64,000 nucleotides of DNA, from contig JAHLWS010000079.1 in assembly GCA_019057795.1 (NCBI GenBank), positions 1 through 64,000 of the forward strand. The letters are read 5' to 3'. Below the pieces are notes generated by a model. The model did not search any database. It was given only the letters and a program-made list of their open reading frames with translations, and was not told where the DNA came from. Source of the DNA: Promethearchaeota archaeon (GTDB lineage Archaea; Asgardarchaeota; Lokiarchaeia; Sigyniarchaeales; SOKP01). Shown here piece by piece: positions 7,130-19,523 of this stretch. Positions within the stretch are counted from its first letter, which is position 1. The number at the start of each line of letters is the position of its first letter. The translations under genes and the position numbers were made by a program.

Positions 7130-8179
7130 CTATTTTTCTCTCAATAAATTAAGGCTTAAAAAATTATTTAGTTCTTTAACTCTTGTACGTAATGTAACCT
7201 CGGTTATATCTGCGATTGTTGCTATCATATGTTGATTAATCCGATTTCTTACTGCTTTTGAGCTAATATATATTGCAGCAGCAGCGATTCCTTTAGGATC
7301 TTTTCCTGAAGAATAAAAACCTTCATTCTGTGCTAATTTAATTGTTTTATAAGAAAGTTGCTTTATCTCTTCACTTAAATCGAGATCATTAGAAAATTGA
7401 TTGATGTAATCATTTATTGACAATCTTTTTATTTGATAATTTAACAATGGTAATATATCTCTGTATAATAATTTATACTTCTTATACAGTACTTTCGATG
7501 GTATTCCAGAAACTTTAGCAAACTTTTTTAAACCAACATATATCCCTTTTATTTTTGTCAAGAGATATAATGAAACAATAATCAAAATTCTAATATCCGT
7601 TGTATATCCATTTTCAACTGCTATCCTGCAAATTTCATGAGCATCTTGAAGATCGATATTATAAAGCTTTAGCTTTTCCTTTATATCTTTGAGATCCTGA
7701 CTTGAATTTTTAATTTCTATCCTTTCTATTTGTTTGGGCTTTTGATAGATATACTTCTCGTTTGTAGTAATTTCCAATTTTAACAGATTGCCAAGTTTGG
7801 TACTTCTAATATCGAGTTTATATTTACATACTGGATAATTCATACAACCTATAAATTTTCCGTATCTACTATCTCTTATAGCTAAATTACTCCCACATTC
7901 AGGACATTTTACTTCATATTTTTTAGTATTTAAAAGAAATTTGCATTTTGGATAATTTGAACAACCTAAAAAGAAGAAATTATATTTTTTTGCTTTTCTA
8001 ACTACTAGAATATTACCACATTCAGGGCACTTTATTCTTGTATAATTACTGATATTAAATATAAATTTACATTCTGGATATCCTATACAACCTAAAAATG
8101 GCCCATATTTCCCTAGATTTGATTTTAAAGCTTTACCACATTCGGGACATGCTTTTGGAATTTCCCAAGGGTTTTTCAT
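7130..8179 (-). CDS. TFIIB-like factor with three topoisomerase-type zinc fingers at the N-terminus
   Basis: Residues 1-125 hold three C4 fingers of the type found at the C-terminus of topoisomerase I: CPEC-x16-C-x5-C near 11-37, a second near 51-80 and a third near 91-117, each with a YGPFLGC-like core. Residues 165-349 form two cyclin repeats. The second is clearly TFB-like, with SGKDPKGIAAAAIYISSKA and then VTEVTLRTRVKEL in slightly altered form (ITEVTLRTRVKEL). The first is diverged. Archaeal TFB normally begins with a single CxxC...CxxC ribbon that contacts RNA polymerase, plus a B-reader; neither is evident. It could be a promoter-specific TFB paralogue, a repressor or a damaged-DNA-binding factor. 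It is divergent from the NERD-helicase with 149 bp between them. Confidence 0.8.
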   Translation of the reverse strand: MKNPWEIPKACPECGKALKSNLGKYGPFLGCIGYPECKFIFNISNYTRIKCPECGNILVVRKAKKYNFFFLGCSNYPKCKFLLNTKKYEVKCPECGSNLAIRDSRYGKFIGCMNYPVCKYKLDIRSTKLGNLLKLEITTNEKYIYQKPKQIERIEIKNSSQDLKDIKEKLKLYNIDLQDAHEICRIAVENGYTTDIRILIIVSLYLLTKIKGIYVGLKKFAKVSGIPSKVLYKKYKLLYRDILPLLNYQIKRLSINDYINQFSNDLDLSEEIKQLSYKTIKLAQNEGFYSSGKDPKGIAAAAIYISSKAVRNRINQHMIATIADITEVTLRTRVKELNNFLSLNLLREK

Positions 8180-8328: not shown

Positions 8329-10101
8329 ATGGCAAATTTCCTTAGTCAACCCCCTATTACGGCAACGGATGGCGAGAGAGCATTTTATAGTCGGATTAAA
8401 TCTGTTTTTATTGGAGAAGATCACATATTAGGGTATTTTGAGCCAGATATCGGAGGAATTCATCCAGATTTTCTTTTACTTTCTCCTAAGTATGGTATTA
8501 TAATCGTAGAAATCAAGGATTATTCTGAAAAATATCTTAAAACGATTTCGAAATCAGGGAAATGGGAATGGCTGAAACATGAAAAATTAGTGTCAATCAA
8601 TAATCCTTTTGATCAGATATATCAATATTATCGTGCTGTAAAAGGCAAGATTGATAATTGTCATTTTCCAGAAGGAACTGATATACCAATTAGTAGATTA
8701 GTCGTTTTCAGTCAAATCCCGCAAACTGGATATATCGCTGAAAAAATAAGGAAAATCTCTCCAGAGAAAGTTTATTTATGCTTTAAGGAAACGCTTGGCA
8801 GAAATGAGAAATTTAGGGATTTTTATTTTGATATGATACCTTTGAATTGTGAACTTACTAATGATCAATTCAAACATATTCGGGCTAATCTCATACCTAC
8901 TTGCCGATTACCCTCTCTAAAACAATCAAATTTAATGGAATATTTTAAAAGTGAAGACCAGGTCAAACTATTAGATGAAGAACAGGAAAAACTGGCAAGG
9001 GAACTAGGGGAAGGACATCGTTTAATTTTTGGTGTAGCAGGTAGCGGAAAAACAGTTCTTTTAATCGCGAGAGCGAGAATATTAGCTAAAAGACATCCTG
9101 ATTGGAAGATTCTAATCTTATGTTATAATAAATTACTGAGAAAGCAAATTTTCAATATGCTCAATCCTCAAGATTACGATGCTGATATAACCATTAGTAC
9201 ATTTCACGGATGGGCAAGGAATTACATTCTCAATGCTGACGATGAGTTCTCTTCGTTATATCACGAAGCTAATAAAAGGGCAAAGGAGGAAGATAAGAAG
9301 GATGACTTCTTTCAGGAATTTGTACCAAAAATATTGAATCAAATGATAAAATCTCAGGGGGAAAACCAGCTTCCTTACGATGCGATCTTAATTGACGAAG
9401 CTCAAGATTTTGAAAAAGTATGGTTTGAACCTATAATGCAACTATTAAACCCAGATACGAATTCGTTATTGATTACTTGTGATGGGCTTCAAGGAATTTA
9501 CGCTCGTAAGAGATTTACTTGGTCGAGTGTTGGAATACAAGCAAGAGGAAGAGTTAAAAGATTTGATAAATCATATCGAATTCCAATTGAAATAGGAATA
9601 ATAGCTCAAAAAATATTGCCTAAGAATATTACAAACTTAATAGGTCAATTTGATGAGTTTATGTCAACGAAGCATTTTATTGGAAATCATGGAACTGTTG
9701 AAATTTTCGTATCTGACACTCGAGAAGACGAATACATAAAACTTGTGGAAAAAATAGCTCGTTCTTTAAAGAGCCCTCAAGAAATCTTAGTGCTTTTCAA
9801 ATTAAATATGAAGAAGATAAATTATAAACACCCGTTCTTCGATTATCTTAAAAGTCACAATATTAAATGGAAAGATTTACAAGATTACAATTACGAATCA
9901 CCGGGTTTAGTAATAGGGACCCTTTATGGAACTAAAGGTTTAGAGTCTGATACAATAATTATACCTGAATTAGATACATATAATTCAAATCAAGATCGAC
10001 AGTTATTATATGTAGGCATAACTCGCTCTCGTAAGAAGTTAGTTTTGAGCGCTAATAAATCAACAAAATTGATGAAATTATTGGAACCACATTCTAGCTA
10101 A
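8329..10101 (+). CDS. NERD-domain superfamily I helicase
   Basis: Residues 15-110 match the nuclease-related NERD domain: HPDFLLLSPKYGIIIVEIKDY supplies the Asp and the ExK of a PD-(D/E)xK fold. A UvrD/Rep-type helicase core follows, with Walker A GVAGSGKT at about 235-242, motif Ia region FHGWARN, Walker B LIDEAQDF near 350, and the last motifs GTLYGTKGLESD and LLYVGITRSRKKL near the C-terminus. At 590 residues this is a normal length for NERD-helicases, which are frequent in prokaryotic defence islands. GGAG lies only 2 nt before the ATG. Its stop overlaps the convergent DUF4313-like gene by 4 bases. Confidence 0.85.
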   Translation: MANFLSQPPITATDGERAFYSRIKSVFIGEDHILGYFEPDIGGIHPDFLLLSPKYGIIIVEIKDYSEKYLKTISKSGKWEWLKHEKLVSINNPFDQIYQYYRAVKGKIDNCHFPEGTDIPISRLVVFSQIPQTGYIAEKIRKISPEKVYLCFKETLGRNEKFRDFYFDMIPLNCELTNDQFKHIRANLIPTCRLPSLKQSNLMEYFKSEDQVKLLDEEQEKLARELGEGHRLIFGVAGSGKTVLLIARARILAKRHPDWKILILCYNKLLRKQIFNMLNPQDYDADITISTFHGWARNYILNADDEFSSLYHEANKRAKEEDKKDDFFQEFVPKILNQMIKSQGENQLPYDAILIDEAQDFEKVWFEPIMQLLNPDTNSLLITCDGLQGIYARKRFTWSSVGIQARGRVKRFDKSYRIPIEIGIIAQKILPKNITNLIGQFDEFMSTKHFIGNHGTVEIFVSDTREDEYIKLVEKIARSLKSPQEILVLFKLNMKKINYKHPFFDYLKSHNIKWKDLQDYNYESPGLVIGTLYGTKGLESDTIIIPELDTYNSNQDRQLLYVGITRSRKKLVLSANKSTKLMKLLEPHSS

Positions 10102-10388
10102 GAATTAATTTGACAAATAAGGCAAAGGTGTGAACCAATTAAAATAAAACGATCTGTTGGAATAATCAATTCTGATTCAAAAAGCTTTTGAGCAAGATTT
10201 TTATTTTCAGAATAATCCTTAAGAATAAATTCATCTGGAGCAAGTTCTACTGAATTACACATAATAGAAAGCTCAGCTAACGGCTCGTCATTATAATTAT
10301 AAACAAAAATTGCAAGTTGACCATTTGAATAATGCTTTTTTTGTATTTTTCTGTTGAGTGCTATTTGTGTATTTATCATTTCTTTCAT
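10098..10388 (-). CDS. DUF4313-like small protein
   Basis: 96 residues with the pattern of a small bacterial and phage-associated family I recall as DUF4313: a YSNGQLAIFVY opening, DEPLAELS, then LAPDEFILKDYSEN followed by a short helix and a closing beta segment. Its function is unknown; in bacteria such proteins sit on mobile elements. It is convergent with the NERD-helicase (4-bp overlap) and divergent from the SAP-domain gene, with 103 bp between starts. The family assignment is from memory of the motif and is moderate. Confidence 0.5.
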   Translation of the reverse strand: MKEMINTQIALNRKIQKKHYSNGQLAIFVYNYNDEPLAELSIMCNSVELAPDEFILKDYSENKNLAQKLFESELIIPTDRFILIGSHLCLICQINS

Positions 10389-10491: not shown

Positions 10492-11109
10492 ATGAATATA
10501 TTAAATATAAAAGATAAACTCAGTTTTAAGTATGATAAAATGGTTGATTTAAATAAGCTTACTGTTAAATATTTAGAAAAATTAGCTGAAGAGTGTAGAA
10601 TCACATTTAAAAAGTCTATTAATAAACCTGCAAAAATTAAAACAATATTAAACGCAGGAATTCCAAGTAATAAAATTGAAAATTTATTTGAAAAATATTT
10701 AGCTGAAATCAAAGCTAAAAAAAAGCCAAGTAAAGTAGCCAAAAAAAAGCCAGAATCAACAGCAACTACAAAAATTGTAGGACGTGTAAAATTACTTGAA
10801 GATCAGGTAAGATTTTTAATGTCTAAAATAGATAGTGTTGAGATTAAATTAGCAAATTTAAAAACATCTAATTTAATTGGAACAGAGACAGATTCACTTG
10901 AAATTAAAAATATAATAAAATCAAAGATACTACCTGGAAACTCTATTGCTATAGATGATTTACTTGATACTAGAAAATTAAAAAAATATTCTTTCGAGCA
11001 AATTGAAAAAGCAATAATAGATTTAATTGATGATGAGATTTTTGATGTATCAGAAAGTAGTTCTAAAACAAAAATTGAAGGAAATATAGGGCGTTTAATT
11101 AGAAGATAA
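10492..11109 (+). CDS. SAP-like / coiled-coil / winged-helix DNA-binding adaptor
   Basis: 205 residues in three parts. Residues 18-70 resemble a SAP/HeH helix-extension-helix (LTVKYLEKLAEE with K-rich second helix and ILNAGI), a small DNA-binding fold. Residues 75-92 are a lysine-rich linker. Residues 94-120 form a short coiled coil (LLEDQVRFLMSKIDSVEIKL). Residues 130-205 look like a winged helix (IKNIIKSKI, then ID-DLLD-KLKKYSFEQIEKAIIDLIDDEIFDV). Twenty-one bases separate it from the AAA+ ATPase gene downstream, so the two are probably one operon, with this protein as DNA-targeting or oligomerising partner. It has no named family that I recognise. Confidence 0.7.
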   Translation: MNILNIKDKLSFKYDKMVDLNKLTVKYLEKLAEECRITFKKSINKPAKIKTILNAGIPSNKIENLFEKYLAEIKAKKKPSKVAKKKPESTATTKIVGRVKLLEDQVRFLMSKIDSVEIKLANLKTSNLIGTETDSLEIKNIIKSKILPGNSIAIDDLLDTRKLKKYSFEQIEKAIIDLIDDEIFDVSESSSKTKIEGNIGRLIRR

Positions 11110-11130
11110 AAAATTTAAGGAGTTTTTAAT

Positions 11131-13578
11131 TTGATACTTCAAAAAAGATTAACATGGCCTTCTCATAGAGATTGTCAAAGATTAAATGATATCATTTTTG
11201 AAACAAATTTACATCCATTTGGGATAGCAGCATACAATCCTAGTAAGCTTGTTACTGATTTTGTTGGAAGGAGAGAAGAACTTCAAAAAATAAAAGTACA
11301 AATTCAAAATGTTATTAACCATAAAATGAGTAGATCTATACAATTGGATGGTCCAGCTGGTGTTGGTAAATCTACATTATTTAATTTTTTAAAAGAGTCA
11401 ATCCAAAAAGAGAGATCTCCAAAAACTATAAAAACAGAATATCTATTTAAAGATTGTGATATCTTCTCTACCTATTTTGTAATACCCGATAAGATCTCAG
11501 AGTTCTCTAATCTTTGGAGGTCTATGTTAGAAGGTCTAAGCTCTGGGTTCGATATTGAAGTTGGATATGATATAAGTCTTCCGGAGTATATCGCATTTCA
11601 TTTAATATATCGCTTGTTTCAAAATGATAAAGAAAATATCGCTAAAATAATTTGGACAGAGGAGACTCGTCCAAAAAATCTATACCGCGTAGAATTTAAA
11701 GACATAATTGATCCACTTTTTTTGAAAGGATCCTCAGCAGTTAAAGCAATTCAATTCTATTTTACAGAAAATAAAAGAGAGCTTCGTAATATTTTTAGAG
11801 TTAAAATTAAGGATAAGTTATATGAGATTAAAAGAGCGGATAATAAATTCATACTTAATTTATTTAGAGTTATTGATGAGGATGATCCAGAAGATTATTT
11901 AGATTTAATTCTTAATGCAGATAAAAGTTTATTTCAAACTAATGATAATTTGATTGATTATTTTAATGATTTAATGCGATATTACGCATGTAGCGCGAGG
12001 AAACAACCAATATTGCTTATTGGTATTGATGAGTCTGTAAAAGCAGATCCTCAAGATCGTGAAGATTATTTTTTAAGATTAGCAAATTTATTTGTAAAAT
12101 TAAGAAACAAATTAAAGGATATATTATTTGTTTTTATTTCAACAACAGAAGACTGGGCAAGCTTTAATGATGTTTTAAAAAAGAAAACAGATTTACAGAG
12201 CCAATTGAGTGAATTTATGTATAAAATATCTCTTACTCAGTTAAGTGTGGAAGAAATGATTCAAGTTTTCAAAAATCGAATGAATAGATTTTGGCAAAAT
12301 TATTCCTCCAATCGACCATTAGAGGCTCACTATTATCCATTTTCGGAAAATCTATTTGAATATGTGTATCGTTTTAAATTGAGAGATTTACGTGGATCAA
12401 TCCATTTTTTAAATGATATTTGGATGAAATTTAGGTACTCACATGAAATACCTAAATTTGAGAAAATATTTGAATGTATGAGAGAAGTACGGAAATTTGA
12501 TCGTAAACCTTTTGATCCTCATACATTGAAAAGATTTGAGTGGACAATAATTAATAAATCATTTAATGAGCAATCCAGATTTAATAGCAACTCGGCGAGG
12601 TCTTCGTCAGTAGAAAAAGGACTTGAAAATGCATGGAAATGCTTACTAAGTGAAAATCCCCCAACAATAACGAGAATTGAAAATAACTGTGTGATTAAAA
12701 CTTCAAGTGGCAATCGTAGACCCGATGTATATTTAGAGATTCATGGAAATTTAGGAGCAGAATTTCGTCGCAATGTTGAATTTCAAGTTAAAGCCTACAA
12801 TCAAAAAGGTACGGTATCCTTAAAACATATAGAATCATCTTTAGAATTATTTGAAGAAAATTTTACTGATTTTATTTATTTTATTATTACTGGAAGAGGT
12901 TTAGAACCTAGAGCTGAAGCAAGAGTAAAAGAATTGGAAGTAAAATATACAAATCGTATAAGGCGCCCAGTATTAACTGAAGATCAAGAAAATCGTTTAT
13001 ATTTGTTAGCACTCTATAAAGAGATCACAAGTATGAATTTAGGTGATATACATCAAAATGATTTGCAGATAGCTAAAGAAGCTTTAAGTTTTATTATAGG
13101 GCAGCCAGTAGAAAAGTTTTTGGCAGAAATAAAAAATCTAGCTTACAGAAGAACAAAAATTGAAGGTGAAGTTATATCCCCACCAAAACCCCCTGTAATT
13201 ACTCCACCTCCAATAGATATAACTTCTTTTACTGAAGAAACTTCAGAAATTACACCACCAGAACCACCAGAACCACCTTCTCAAGTTAAATGGTTGGTTA
13301 AATACCCCGATTTTAAACCTTACCGTTATGAAGCATGTGCTTTATGTGGATATTTAAAAAACCGAGAAACAGGTAGATATCAATTTAAATTTACAATCCC
13401 TACAGTACAAAAAAATGTTATTATTAGTAATGCGTTATTAAGTAAAGATTTATTTAAAAAATTAGTGAACTTTATGAAAAATTATAGATATATTGTTCCA
13501 GAGAAAACTTCTTTTAAGCTTACTCAATTGGGAGAGGAATTCTATCAAACAGTTAAAGCAGAAAATTATAGATGTTAA
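11131..13578 (+). CDS. AAA+ ATPase with Mrr-like nuclease domain and C-terminal winged helix
   Basis: 815 residues starting at a TTG with AAGGAG 8 nt upstream. FVGRREEL near 44 precedes Walker A GPAGVGKST (74-82). Walker B ILLIGIDES is near 294-302, and a sensor-1-like strand FVFISTTEDW follows near 333, as in ORC/Cdc6- and STAND-type ATPases. Residues about 505-620 look like a restriction-endonuclease fold: RRPDVYLEI supplies the Asp near 532 and VEFQVKAY supplies QxK near 552-554, the Mrr-type variant of PD-(D/E)xK. A proline-rich linker (about 682-718) leads to a CxxC element and a C-terminal winged-helix-like segment (LFKKLVNFM...FKLTQLGEEF). It probably senses something via the ATPase and cuts DNA; this is inference. 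Confidence 0.75.
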   Translation: MILQKRLTWPSHRDCQRLNDIIFETNLHPFGIAAYNPSKLVTDFVGRREELQKIKVQIQNVINHKMSRSIQLDGPAGVGKSTLFNFLKESIQKERSPKTIKTEYLFKDCDIFSTYFVIPDKISEFSNLWRSMLEGLSSGFDIEVGYDISLPEYIAFHLIYRLFQNDKENIAKIIWTEETRPKNLYRVEFKDIIDPLFLKGSSAVKAIQFYFTENKRELRNIFRVKIKDKLYEIKRADNKFILNLFRVIDEDDPEDYLDLILNADKSLFQTNDNLIDYFNDLMRYYACSARKQPILLIGIDESVKADPQDREDYFLRLANLFVKLRNKLKDILFVFISTTEDWASFNDVLKKKTDLQSQLSEFMYKISLTQLSVEEMIQVFKNRMNRFWQNYSSNRPLEAHYYPFSENLFEYVYRFKLRDLRGSIHFLNDIWMKFRYSHEIPKFEKIFECMREVRKFDRKPFDPHTLKRFEWTIINKSFNEQSRFNSNSARSSSVEKGLENAWKCLLSENPPTITRIENNCVIKTSSGNRRPDVYLEIHGNLGAEFRRNVEFQVKAYNQKGTVSLKHIESSLELFEENFTDFIYFIITGRGLEPRAEARVKELEVKYTNRIRRPVLTEDQENRLYLLALYKEITSMNLGDIHQNDLQIAKEALSFIIGQPVEKFLAEIKNLAYRRTKIEGEVISPPKPPVITPPPIDITSFTEETSEITPPEPPEPPSQVKWLVKYPDFKPYRYEACALCGYLKNRETGRYQFKFTIPTVQKNVIISNALLSKDLFKKLVNFMKNYRYIVPEKTSFKLTQLGEEFYQTVKAENYRC

Positions 13579-13581
13579 GGC

Positions 13582-13590
13582 TTTTTTTTT
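13582..13590 (+). terminator. Oligo-T terminator after the AAA+ nuclease gene
   Basis: Nine consecutive T residues begin 4 bases after the stop codon, as expected for archaeal intrinsic termination of the 10492-13578 operon. Confidence 0.5.
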
Positions 13591-13614
13591 GTAGCATTTT
13601 TCGAATAATTAATT

Positions 13615-13695
13615 TTAAATTTGACTATTTAGCCAATCTCTAAGGTCATTTAATACTATTCTTCTATCTTTTTCGATTTCATTATATACTTCATG
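13615..13695 (-). pseudogene. Duplicated C-terminal tail of the monoglyceride-lipase-like gene
   Basis: On the minus strand 81 bases encode the last 26 residues (HEVYNEIEKD...LNSQI) and stop of the hydrolase at 15294-16127, with only a couple of base differences. Homology ends abruptly at 13695. The rest of the gene is absent here, so this is a partial duplication or the scar of a recombination. The surrounding 13591-13878 gap holds no complete gene; it includes a TATA-like alternating run near 13755. Confidence 0.75.
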
Positions 13696-15150: not shown

Positions 15151-15293
15151 TTAAGTTAAAGCTCTAACATCAAAAGTCTTGAATTGAAGTTTTCGATACA
15201 AAATACATCAGAGACATTAGAAATGAAATATTGTTAAAAAATTAAATTTGATAAGGTTTTAGAAAAACGATTGTTTCGGTCGAATATTATAAT

Positions 15294-16127
15294 TTAAATT
15301 TGGCTATTTAGCCAATCTCTCAGGTCATTTAATACTATTCTTCTATCTTTTTCGATTTCATTATATACTTCATGGTATAAACCTTCATAAATTTTAATGG
15401 TTTTGTCATGCATTTTAAACAGGTTATCAAGTTCGTCGCTACCTTTAAGTAATTTATCTTCTGAGCCGCACTGAACCAGCAAGTTAATTTTAAAATTGCT
15501 TACAACTGCCTTGAGATTTTTGAAATTTTTTATCATTTCATATCCTAATCTTGCGGTAATTTTATCTGCGTTGACTAAAGGGTCGGTTTTATAATTTTTT
15601 ACTACTTCTGGGTCGTGACTTAAGAATTTTGAATCAATTCTAGGATTAAATTTCATTTTAGGGGCAATTTTTGAGAAAATTTTAGCTATTAATTTAAGGA
15701 ATCCACTAGTTTCTTTACCAGGGCTAGTACCCGTTCCCGAAAGAATAAGCCCATCTAAAAGATGCTCGTATTTTTTAGTGAAATAAATGGCGATAAATGA
15801 ACCGAGTGAGTGACCTAGCATAAAAATTGGTAAATCAGAGTGTTTTTCTTTTATTAAATCGTAAAATAATTTTTCATCTTCTATGAATTGGTCAAAAGAA
15901 TCTACATAATTACGTAATCCCTCGGATTTACCATGACCGAGATGATCGTTAGCATAAATTGCAAAACTTTCCGGAATTAATTCATTCACAACATTTTGAT
16001 ATCTACCAGAATGTTCAAATCCTCCATGTACAAGTTGAATAACTGCTTTAGGGTTATTTGGAATCCATGCTTGATAATAAATGTTTAAATCTTTTACTCC
16101 TTTAAATTTTCCCTCTATATGTTTCAA
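15294..16127 (-). CDS. Monoglyceride lipase / lysophospholipase-like alpha/beta hydrolase
   Basis: 277 residues of the PldB/monoacylglycerol lipase type. The oxyanion HGGFEHSGRY is near residue 34, ANDHLGHGKSEG near 60, nucleophile elbow LGHSLGS near 105, acidic SEDKLLKGS near 222 and catalytic His in YEGLYHEVYNE near 250; the triad is complete and the length normal. The probable role is hydrolysis of lipid esters. Its last 26 codons are duplicated at 13615-13695. There is no operon partner. Confidence 0.88.
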   Translation of the reverse strand: MKHIEGKFKGVKDLNIYYQAWIPNNPKAVIQLVHGGFEHSGRYQNVVNELIPESFAIYANDHLGHGKSEGLRNYVDSFDQFIEDEKLFYDLIKEKHSDLPIFMLGHSLGSFIAIYFTKKYEHLLDGLILSGTGTSPGKETSGFLKLIAKIFSKIAPKMKFNPRIDSKFLSHDPEVVKNYKTDPLVNADKITARLGYEMIKNFKNLKAVVSNFKINLLVQCGSEDKLLKGSDELDNLFKMHDKTIKIYEGLYHEVYNEIEKDRRIVLNDLRDWLNSQI

Positions 16128-16680: not shown

Positions 16681-16691
16681 GCAGTTATCAT

Positions 16692-16750
16692 TAGGAATTA
16701 ATTTTTTCCATTTTCCATTATTTATTAATCTTTTATTTTCTTAAATTAAG
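16692..16750. repeat. Junction repeat R, copy 2
   Basis: Same block as at 14940-14997 and 18870-18932, here between the helicase N-terminal fragment and the intact Smr gene. Confidence 0.7.
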
Positions 16751-17124
16751 TCTCTAATAATTGCTATTCTTTGATCAATGTCAAGTGGATACTTCAAACC
16801 GTCATCTGTACCTTCGAAGAAGGAATCGTAATCCTTTAAACGCCGAGCAATAAATTCTTCATTATATTCTATTATTTTACGTTTTGTGTAATGCAGCTCT
16901 TTTTTATGTTTTCTTATCTTAAGGAAATCCTTTAAACGGAACCAATATATTCGTGGATACTTGAGTAAATAGTCCAATTCTGTAATAAATTGATCTTTTT
17001 CATGAAAAGTTAAGTAGGTCTCTTTTTTCAAGAAATTGTGCCAGCTGTTTTCCCACTTCTTTTTGAGTTCATTTTTTTCATGAAAAACTTGCTGGATTTT
17101 ACGCTTAGGCATGAATAATTTCAA
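16741..17124 (-). pseudogene. N-terminal fragment of a UvrD/HelD-like helicase (copy A)
   Basis: 127 residues, largely helical and basic. The tail FIARRLKDYDSFFEGTDDG followed by LKYPLDIDQRIAIIRDLI matches the segment that immediately precedes the Walker A motif in HelD/UvrD-type helicases (LDxxQRxAI..). The frame stops exactly where GAGSGKT should follow. The stop lies in block R at a TTAATTT stretch also present at the helicase 3' end, so an internal deletion across a short direct repeat would explain it. Positions 16690-17143 are duplicated at 18868-19321. The peptide could be expressed but cannot be a helicase. Confidence 0.65.
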
Positions 17125-17307
17125 TCAACCACAATTAAAAAATATGATTAATCTATCTAAAATAGTCTAAAACAAGTTAAAAATTATTTGTAAGCATTTT
17201 TTCAACCATAAACATAAATATTTATATAATTTTTAAATACTAAAAATCAAGTTTACTTATTATACAATAGATATTTATAACTTTTTCACTATATTATATC
17301 ATAGAGA

Positions 17308-17496
17308 ATGTCAGATATTATTGAAAGTAATCCCGCGATCCTTGGAGGAAAACCTATTATAAAAGGAACCAGAATTCCAGTTGCTTTAATTTATGAACTA
17401 ATAAGATTGAATTATTCAATAAATGATATTTTAGAAGAATATCCCCATCTTAGTAAAAATATCATTTTAACTCTTCTTAACAATAAGAGTGTTTAA
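17308..17496 (+). CDS. DUF433 antitoxin
   Basis: 62 residues with the DUF433 signature: NPAILGGKPIIKGTRIPV, then LIRLNYSINDILEEYPHLS and a short helix. These are small winged/HTH-like proteins that usually pair with PIN-type toxins and repress their own promoter. The gene ends 38 bases before the PIN gene on the same strand. An AT-rich TATATAATTTTTAAAT stretch about 80 bp upstream is a candidate promoter. The usual length is about 75 residues, so the C-terminus is slightly short. Confidence 0.8.
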   Translation: MSDIIESNPAILGGKPIIKGTRIPVALIYELIRLNYSINDILEEYPHLSKNIILTLLNNKSV

Positions 17497-17534
17497 TATT
17501 TGAGTAAAATAATAATATTTAAGTGTAAAATTCA

Positions 17535-17993
17535 TTGAGATATAAGTTAAAATTATATTTAGACACATCAGTTATCTCAGCGCTTTTTGATGAGAGAAAT
17601 CCTGAAAGAAAAGCTCTTACAGAATCCTTTTTCAATGAGATTGTAAACTTCGAAATATATATCTCTGATATTACTCTTGCTGAGATTGAAAAAACGCCTG
17701 ATAATGAGATTAAAAGAAAAATGGAGGAAAGAACAACAGAATTTTCAGTTCTTAATAGTTTAATAGAAGTTGAAGAATTAGCAAAAAAGATTATTCAAAA
17801 AGGGGCAATTAGTGAATCATATTCTGAAGACGCTTATCATATTGCTATAGCTATAATAAATGAAATGGATTTTCTTTTAAGTTGGAATTTTAGACATATA
17901 GTAAGAAAAAGGACGAAAGATATAGTGAGAATGATTAGTACTTTAAACAATTTAAGACAAATAGAAATAATAACTCCTGCAGAATTATTATGA
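17535..17993 (+). CDS. PIN-domain toxin (VapC-like ribonuclease)
   Basis: 152 residues, TTG start. KLYLDTSVIS supplies the first catalytic Asp (about residue 10), DITLAEIEKTP the Glu near 48, SEDAYHIAIAI the central Asp near 97, and LLSWNFRHI the fourth acidic/W-N position typical of the subfamily paired with DUF433. It is probably an RNase neutralised by the DUF433 protein encoded just upstream. Confidence 0.82.
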   Translation: MRYKLKLYLDTSVISALFDERNPERKALTESFFNEIVNFEIYISDITLAEIEKTPDNEIKRKMEERTTEFSVLNSLIEVEELAKKIIQKGAISESYSEDAYHIAIAIINEMDFLLSWNFRHIVRKRTKDIVRMISTLNNLRQIEIITPAELL

Positions 17994-18008
17994 AATAGGT
18001 GAAGAATC

Positions 18009-18191
18009 ATTTTAGATAAAAAAGAAATTGAAAAAATAGAAAAAGAGATCGAACTAGAATTCCCATATGATATGGCATTGCAGCAAATTCATATAGCCAG
18101 AAAAATCATTGCTAAGGAGGCAGAGAAGAAGGGGTTAAAATATCTTGATTATATTAAACTAATTACTAAAGATATTCGAGCAATTCAATAA
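18009..18191 (+). CDS. Small helical ORF after the PIN gene, start unclear
   Basis: An open frame begins 15 bases after the PIN stop and encodes LDKKEIEKIEKEIELEF, then PYDMALQQIHIARKII and KYLDYIKLITKDIRAIQ. No ATG, GTG or TTG opens it; translation would need ATT/ATC at 18006-18011, or the internal ATG at 18072 (39 residues). It may be a remnant of a third gene of the DUF433-PIN module. The family is unknown. Confidence 0.35.
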   Translation: MLDKKEIEKIEKEIELEFPYDMALQQIHIARKIIAKEAEKKGLKYLDYIKLITKDIRAIQ

Positions 18192-18319
18192 ATTAAAATA
18201 TAAAAAACATACCGCCAAACTCAAGAATAATCCCCCTTGCTCTTAAGTATCCTTTTAAACTTCCTGATTCTTGGAATTAAAATTTCCAACTTTTATTAAT
18301 AATCTCTAATTTAACATTT

Positions 18320-18874
18320 CTAACTTTCTTTAATAAATTCCTTAATGGTTTTTCCCGTTTCCTTAATCGAATTATATTCTGTTTCTAATTCTCCATCTAA
18401 TAAACTTAAAATATTACTTTTTTTGAAGATCTCTTGTTTAATTTTTGAATAAATTGTTGTCTTAGGATACCAGAAATAGGAAAATGACATAATATCATCT
18501 TGACTTTTATCCAGAAATCTATCAATTATCTGGATATAATCTAGCTCTCTAGATAATAAATTTTCATATAATGTTTTAGCAATTTGTTCTCCTTTCCTAG
18601 TAAGCTTAAAAATATTAATTTTCTTGTTCTCATCAAAAGGTAGTTCTTTTTTAGAAATCCATGAATTATCAATAAAGACTTGAACTACATCATTAGTTTG
18701 TTGTGAAAAGTCGCCATAATCATAAGGAGAATAATTTACATCAACTTCTAATTCACTATCTAATCTAATAATATCAACTAATTTCTGTAATGTAGTGCTA
18801 CCTCTTATTTCTCCTTTGAATTTATAAAATAAGATAAAAATTAAATCTCCTAAATTAATTTTTTTAGTTTTCAT
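18320..18874 (-). CDS. Winged-helix protein of unknown family
   Basis: 184 residues. The N-terminal part has the pattern of an archaeal DNA-binding or protein-interaction winged helix: LIFILFYKFKGEIRGSTTLQKLV, then NYSPYDYGDFSQQTNDVV, a turn and IFKLTRKGEQIAKTL. The LQKL...YGxxS signature recalls Panacea-like and other antitoxin regulators. The C-terminal half is helical (IIDRFLDKSQDD...). The ATG lies exactly at the edge of repeat R, so its native promoter may have been replaced by the helicase-derived spacer. Confidence 0.6.
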   Translation of the reverse strand: MKTKKINLGDLIFILFYKFKGEIRGSTTLQKLVDIIRLDSELEVDVNYSPYDYGDFSQQTNDVVQVFIDNSWISKKELPFDENKKINIFKLTRKGEQIAKTLYENLLSRELDYIQIIDRFLDKSQDDIMSFSYFWYPKTTIYSKIKQEIFKKSNILSLLDGELETEYNSIKETGKTIKEFIKES

Positions 18875-18932
18875 TAGGAATTAATTTTTTCCATTTTCCA
18901 TTATTTATTAATCTTTTATTTTCTTAAATTAA
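18870..18932. repeat. Junction repeat R, copy 3
   Basis: Third copy of the block that also occurs at 14940 and 16692, here linking helicase remnant B to the winged-helix gene instead of Smr. Confidence 0.7.
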
Positions 18933-19321
18933 GGCTCTAATAATTGCTATTCTTTGATCAATGTCAAGTGGATACTTCAAACCGTCATCTGTACCTTCGA
19001 AAAAGGAATAATAATCCTTTAAACGCCGAGCAATAAATACTTCATTATATTCTATTGTTTTATGTTTTGTGTAACGCAGCTCTTTTTTCTGTTTTCTTAT
19101 CTTAAGGAAATCCTTTAAACGAAACCAATTTATTCGTGGATACTTGAGTAAATAGTCCAATTCTGTAATAAATTGATCTTTTTCATTAAAAATTAAATAG
19201 GTCTCTTTTTTCAAGAAATTGTGTCAGCTGTTTTCCCACTTTTTTTAAGTTCATTTTTTCCTGAAAAACTTGCTGGATTTTACTCTTAGGCATGAATAAT
19301 TTCAATCAACCACAATTAAAA
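18924..19321 (-). pseudogene. Helicase N-terminal fragment (copy B), doubly disrupted
   Basis: About 90 percent identical to copy A at 16741-17124. The Trp codon in the segment NSWHNF of copy A is a TGA here, and bases are lost in the T-rich stretch around 19235-19262, so the N-terminal 30 codons are out of frame. An ATG after the stop (19214) could still give 96 residues. Homology with copy A continues to the CACAATTAAAAAAT at 19308-19321 upstream of the start and then ends. Confidence 0.7.
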
Positions 19322-19523
19322 AATTAAATAGAAAAGAATGAGACATTTAACTTTTCTGTCAAATTGATTTTTCTTTAGGATAAGAGAATTTTTTCCTAAT
19401 TAATATGATAATCATCCTAAATTTTCTATTAATAAATTATGCTAAATTTGAAGGTATAATTATTATTTAATTATTGTATCTCCTTCTAGTTAGGCTTTAT
19501 ATGGCGTATATGAGCCTATTTCT

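Follow-up and report, generated by a model that had tools for sequence, protein, structure and literature searches.

No known organisms are more closely related to eukaryotes than the Asgard archaea, whose immune systems are poorly catalogued. The described systems nearest to the locus reported here combine NTPases and nucleases in different ways. In McrBC/Mrr, an NTPase drives a PD-(D/E)XK nuclease; McrB and McrC are separate, and a modular recognition domain is fused to the NTPase. Avs4 consists of an N-terminal Mrr-like nuclease, a STAND NTPase and a C-terminal repeat sensor. ATPase and nuclease of DUF4297-HerA are separate proteins, while BrxC of BREX and RdrA of RADAR are not known to have a fused PD-(D/E)XK nuclease or a SAP or zinc finger (ZnF) adaptor. 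By word search, the terms ATPase, Mrr, HerA and SAP do not occur in the main text of a 2024 Asgard survey (PMC11291487), and a word search of a 2026 archaeal survey (PMC12988326) gave no Mrr, HerA or SAP. We analysed a window of 64,000 nucleotides, part of a Lokiarchaeal metagenome-assembled genome (contig G000:C79 in the genome set), with a two-gene pair of a partner and an ATPase-nuclease. In the literature searched we met no account of this pair, probably a hitherto undescribed module for genome defence in the archaea nearest to eukaryotes. The features of the locus are:

8329..10101, + strand: NERD-UvrD helicase, a neighbour outside the core pair (PADLOC C3a187 NERD+UvrD, 4e-70; adjoins the pair only in the window and in locus L035)
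10492..11109, + strand: partner (adaptor) gene, 205 aa, ATG start (open reading frame with homologues)
10540..10719, + strand: variable N-terminal DNA-binding module of the partner, here SAP-like, residues 17-76 (AlphaFold2 helices 25-34, 45-54 and 59-76; SAP, Rho_N and HeH Pfam matches in homologues)
10762..10872, + strand: coiled-coil helix, residues 91-127 (AlphaFold2; pLDDT lower at its end)
10882..11106, + strand: conserved C-terminal winged helix of the partner, residues 131-205 (AlphaFold2 pLDDT >90 over most of it; co-divergent with the ATPase)
11117..11122, + strand: Shine-Dalgarno sequence AAGGAG ahead of the TTG of the ATPase gene
11131..13578, + strand: ATPase-nuclease gene (AAA+ ATPase, PD-(D/E)XK nuclease, winged helix), 815 aa, TTG start (open reading frame; 30 homologous loci)
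11209..12438, + strand: ORC/Cdc6-like AAA+ module, residues 27-436 (AAA_16 in 31 of 31; Foldseek and hmmsearch matches)
11350..11376, + strand: Walker A GPAGVGKST, residues 74-82 (G79 and K80 invariant in 31 homologues)
12010..12036, + strand: Walker B ILLIGIDES, residues 294-302 (D300 invariant in 31 homologues)
12583..12960, + strand: predicted PD-(D/E)XK (Mrr-like) nuclease domain, about residues 485-610 (AlphaFold2 topology; Mrr_cat_2 and Mrr_cat matches in members)
12613..12615, + strand: E495 of helix A (E in 29 of 31 homologues)
12721..12726, + strand: P531-D532 motif (P in 29, D in 26 of 31)
12784..12792, + strand: Q552-V-K554 motif (Q in 19 and E in 10 of 31, together 29; K in 28)
13177..13278, + strand: proline-rich disordered linker, residues 683-716 (pLDDT <50)
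13288..13560, + strand: C-terminal winged helix of the ATPase-nuclease, residues 720-810 (AlphaFold2; HTH_45 9e-4, under the Pfam cut-off)
13579..13590, + strand: GGC and a run of nine T, terminator-like

The two genes are separated by 21 bases (11110-11130), and the stop codon TAA of the ATPase gene (13576-13578) is directly followed by the GGC and the oligo-T run. A sequence-only reading of this DNA had noted the gap with its Shine-Dalgarno sequence, the oligo-T run and the reading frames with their motifs; all were recovered in place. The partner may really start at M17 (10540), the start point of its homologues. The flanks are mosaic and repeat-rich, too mosaic for reading an empty site from the flanking DNA. 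Just past the ATPase gene lies a fragment (13601-13695) of the 3' end of an alpha/beta-hydrolase gene (15294-16127), which forms a direct repeat of 95 bases, 94 % identical, with 15280-15374; the two small genes between the copies thus arrived with the duplication or caused it. Two further direct repeats, one of 300 bases (96 %; 16683-16982 and 18866-19165) and one of 84 bases (90 %; 17060-17143 and 19241-19324), are both spaced by about 2.18 kb and mark a duplicated segment in a mosaic region (16683-19324), pieces of which match scattered contigs of same-genus genomes.

The NERD-UvrD helicase upstream is possibly an associated defence gene. As an obligate third gene it was rejected, since it adjoins the pair in two loci only and is absent from several pair-bearing genomes; its apparent presence at seven loci was a clustering artefact, chained via topoisomerase-type zinc ribbons and a UvrD-like protein. 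A small conserved gene of 96-99 aa (10098-10388; L035:12969-13268) is convergent with the helicase, and in L035 both are jointly inverted relative to the pair. The gene at 7130-8179, further upstream, encodes a protein of 349 aa that, by eye, has topoisomerase-type zinc ribbons and ends in a cyclin/TFIIB-like domain, and zinc-ribbon genes resembling it lie near the pair in L035, L036, L037 and L055.

The AlphaFold2 model of the 815-aa protein, built on the 31-member alignment, had a mean pLDDT of 87.6 and presents in this order an AAA+ ATPase, an alpha/beta nuclease-like domain, the disordered proline-rich linker and a C-terminal winged helix. Foldseek matched the ATPase to ORC/Cdc6 (1fnn, 2qby, 7jk6), archaeal SSO1545, BrxC and RdrA. 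In a profile search of the PDB sequences (hmmsearch), Cdc6 and ORC4 were among the best matches, all weak. The Walker A and B motifs read earlier from the letters carry invariant residues; position 301 is E, N or H in most of the 31 homologues, with N or H replacing E301 in two branches. With both Walker motifs and a Cdc6-type fold, the ATPase is an ORC/Cdc6-like AAA+ protein. Neither window protein reached a curated Pfam cut-off, and PADLOC 2.0 returned no strong match for either gene, the best being PDC-S20 (8e-6, P-loop region only) and PtuA (9e-4).

A nuclease-like RPD...EFQVK motif and a PD-(D/E)xK fold at residues 505-620 had been proposed for the same protein. Residues 487-605 of the model form an alpha-beta-beta-beta-alpha-beta core with D532 and Q552-V-K554 where expected, and E495, PD532 and (Q/E)VK554 are conserved in most of the 31 members, both in agreement with the proposal. 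Residue 552 is Q in branches 1 and 2 and E in branch 3; a Q/E swap at this motif position is a known kind of exchange in the PD-(D/E)XK fold. The full set of nuclease residues is retained by most members, over three branches, and was lost in four (L056, L059, L060, L062). The affiliation to Mrr was strengthened by a Pfam scan of single nuclease regions, in which Mrr_cat_2 was matched by 12 of 25 (best 1.3e-4) and Mrr_cat by 5 of 25. The window member's own nuclease region did not match the Mrr Pfam profiles, and the nuclease profile found no relative in the PDB. From the modelled fold, the ATPase-nuclease is a predicted DNA-cutting enzyme. The proline-rich linker and the C-terminal winged helix were likewise found as anticipated. 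The CxxC (about 735-738) was abandoned as a zinc ribbon: a single, poorly conserved pair lies in a helix of the winged helix and forms no zinc site.

The partner model (pLDDT 86.5) comprises a helix-extension-helix (25-54), a long helix (91-127) and a winged helix (131-204), so that the coiled coil and the winged helix expected for this protein hold. Foldseek matches of the latter were winged-helix proteins, none significant. The SAP assignment stood in part: it is supported by the predicted fold and by Pfam SAP matches of relatives (1e-5 to 0.004), while the window protein itself stays under the Pfam threshold. Among the homologues the head of the partner is of at least five kinds: SAP-like, C2H2 finger, helix-hairpin-helix (HhH; HHH_5 match of 4.5e-12 in L054), winged helix and an unnamed ETGK motif (F-x-x-E-T-G-K...W). 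Mapped on the maximum-likelihood ATPase tree, with SAP in L044 assigned by eye, the head states changed at least seven times; two ZnF heads sit among the SAP heads of the window's branch, and HhH, SAP and ETGK heads occur together in one branch. Contig C44 of the window's own genome bears another, distant pair, in which the partner carries a C2H2 finger and not a SAP-like head. Distances between the partner winged helices followed those between the AAA domains closely (Mantel r 0.94, 0 of 5000 permutations), those between the first 60 residues of the partner much less so (r 0.60), as would be expected if the docking module stays constant and the recognition module is exchanged. As far as sequences tell, the partner N-terminus is repeatedly swapped between relatives.

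Across 228 Asgard genomes, searches with single sequences and then with a profile yielded 31 near-complete ATPase-nuclease loci, the window and 30 relatives. The partner was directly upstream in 30 of the 31, mostly with gaps of 4-94 bases, and the adjacency of homologues on which the earlier proposal depended is thus general among these Asgard loci. In L048 the C-terminus of the partner and the ATPase are joined, with an assembly gap of 20 N between them, and the sole locus with no partner directly upstream, L062, has also lost the nuclease residues. Full copies were present in 2 of 24 same-genus genomes, with a fragment at a contig end in one more. Locus L036 from the window's genus nests with L037 and L035 from another genus, and the family-f1 locus L043 has L045 of family f3 as its sister, each with strong (starred) tree support. 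The distribution of the module is patchy, and by its phylogeny it is horizontally moved. Viral contigs, phages and plasmids contained no relative of the ATPase-nuclease beyond weak orc1/cdc6 matches, and a viral origin was rejected. A scan of bacterial and archaeal genomes covered the close branch of the ATPase, the 31-member alignment being too divergent as a query; among the matches listed, the patterns of this branch occurred in Asgard genomes alone (Lokiarchaeota and others), and at best the close branch can be called 'Asgard only' among these matches.

Immune-type genes lie within about 6.5 kb of the pair at about a third of the loci, the remaining loci being ordinary or on short contigs. 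Type I-B Cas8b and Cas6 (L052), a type III-D Cas7 (L041), an AriA/OLD-like ATPase 22 bases downstream of the pair (L043) and a UvrD-like helicase (L045) were observed. HerA is found near the pair in L038, L051 and L055, in the latter two with a gene upstream on the same strand that was named NurA-like by eye and had no Pfam, PADLOC or PDB match. In L042, Argonaute and Cas4-like genes are directly upstream on the same strand; the Argonaute had a PADLOC match of 1.8e-29 and none in the PDB (phmmer). The Argonaute-like gene, the Cas4-like gene and the pair all run in one direction (L042:1819-5730), and a four-gene operon is possible. The neighbours, 96 ORFs, matched 214 PADLOC families, and a control of as many random ORFs matched 61; both sets are small, the family counts are redundant and the control was drawn partly from the same genomes; the best 25 of the 61 were all E1-E2. 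Two hallmarks of defence systems, a neighbourhood of defence genes and a patchy spread, were thus found.

A search with the partner profile revealed two further groups, solo partner genes and nuclease-less pairs. Most genomes of the genus to which the window belongs have a solo gene for a SAP-coiled coil-winged helix protein, syntenic where examined closely; the adaptor may descend from it, or it may act in self-recognition. One example is L087:2661-3206 (G000:C79:78661-79206); the gene is often beside alpha/beta-hydrolase and MoeB/ThiF genes. The pair of family f15 consists of a winged-helix partner and, 6 bases on, a 455-aa AAA+ protein without nuclease, with the same neighbours in six genomes. 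Profile comparison with the nuclease-bearing pair showed both genes to be homologous (98.0 %, 3e-13; 96.3 %, 1.8e-9). Genes named by eye as HypD-like and geranylgeranyl-reductase-like lie near the f15 pair (L138-L144). AAA+ relatives of the f15 type occur with at least one copy in 132 of 228 Asgard genomes, without a partner in the loci read. Nuclease-less pairs in family f15 and solo partner genes in the window's genus belong to the chromosomal core, so that the ancestral role was probably a cellular one and the nuclease-bearing module is probably an accessory offshoot of such a cellular, Cdc6-like pair. The sequence-only reading had foreseen neither these relatives nor the swapping of the heads. 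At L136:4361-6489, a partner with a C2H2 finger is followed after 11 bases by a 535-aa AAA+ protein whose nuclease-like end is of another, ExK type; it may be a further kind of effector served by the same adaptor.

Because the pair adjoins CRISPR and other immune genes, we read it as a module for DNA-targeted genome defence of Asgard archaea, the partner acting in recognition and loading and the ATPase-nuclease as effector, with a probability of about 0.6. The neighbours, the patchiness and the domain swapping, from which we infer this role, support the same proposal of the sequence-only reading. The exchangeable head, SAP-like in the window, would contact DNA, the coiled coil would probably dimerise the partner and its conserved winged helix would dock on the AAA+ protein. 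The ORC/Cdc6-like domain might then assemble or move on the marked DNA, driven by ATP, and bring into play the fused Mrr-like PD-(D/E)XK domain, which would cut the DNA of the invader or, if the mode is abortive, DNA of any kind. Counting against defence are the core nuclease-less pairs, the core solo partner genes and the four degraded nucleases; moreover, several neighbours (HerA, UvrD, HRDC) serve repair too. The core nuclease-less relatives and the repair-type neighbours favour the main rival, DNA repair or replication control, which we consider unlikely. The adaptor would sense a DNA structure or lesion and load the Cdc6-like AAA+ protein, and the nuclease would trim or resect host DNA. 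The ORC/Cdc6-like fold agrees with such a role, and SAP and HhH heads are frequent in repair proteins. Archaeal OLD ATPases reported to act in the cell cycle and not in defence provide a precedent (PMC12796447). A function of this kind is, however, difficult to reconcile with a module that is absent from most same-genus genomes and horizontally moved, that swaps its heads and that has CRISPR, Argonaute and AriA genes as neighbours.

The Tn7-like TnsA-type fusion and the TnsC- and TniQ-like genes beside L039 suggest a cargo function in mobile elements, as target choice, partition or element-element competition. TniB Pfam matches in four ATPases of the family, a TnpB-like gene (by eye) in the vicinity of L046 and the mosaic, repeat-rich flanks of the window point in the same direction, but a transposition module adjoins only 1 of the 31 loci and no phage, viral or plasmid record searched encodes a relative, which renders this explanation quite improbable. 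Hardly to be expected is a role in regulating transcription, with the ATPase as partner of the regulator and a nuclease-like domain that only binds DNA: winged helices, solo partner genes and the loss of nuclease residues in four members would suit it, yet most members in three branches have kept all these residues, with a natural Q/E exchange at one position. Genome defence is thus our preferred reading. Tentatively, the pair may even represent an Asgard immune system of a new class, which arose when a Cdc6-like ATPase and its adaptor, both of the host, gained an Mrr-like nuclease and an exchangeable head, whose target is changed by a swap of the partner's N-terminus, and which forms one operon with Argonaute or HerA-containing modules in some genomes; we regard this as possible, though doubtful. 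If true, the pairing of a nuclease effector with interchangeable heads that bind DNA would plainly exemplify the exchange of recognition modules, and with the core nuclease-less pairs one could test a route by which a replication-type ATPase turned into an immune effector.

The ATPase resembles the archaeal and eukaryal ORC-Cdc6 initiators (1fnn, 2qby, 7jk6, ORC4) in sequence and fold, as an AAA+ protein with a winged helix; unlike these, the Asgard pair has a fused nuclease, a separate adaptor, a patchy distribution and no apparent tie to origins. The ORC-like AAA+ fold is shared with BrxC and RdrA, the Foldseek matches (TM about 0.2-0.36) concerning the ATPase only. PADLOC gave one weak BrxD and one weak BrxF match in the 31 members, and no BREX family was among the best 25 of the 214 PADLOC families of the neighbours. 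Like the Avs4-type STAND NTPase, the Asgard protein is a P-loop NTPase fused to an Mrr-like nuclease, but the nuclease is C-terminal of the ATPase, repeats are absent from the AlphaFold2 model and recognition would reside in a separate, swappable protein; Avs models were not among the PADLOC matches. With the two-component DUF4297-HerA anti-phage complex (PMC11291478), the pair, as a probable defence module, has in common the two genes and the combination of ATPase and nuclease, whereas here ATPase and nuclease are fused, the second gene encodes a putative DNA-binding adaptor and the ATPase is Cdc6-like instead of HerA. The Asgard pair differs from McrBC in having no McrB-type GTPase; as in McrBC/Mrr, an NTPase would drive a PD-(D/E)XK nuclease, and the recognition domain is modular.
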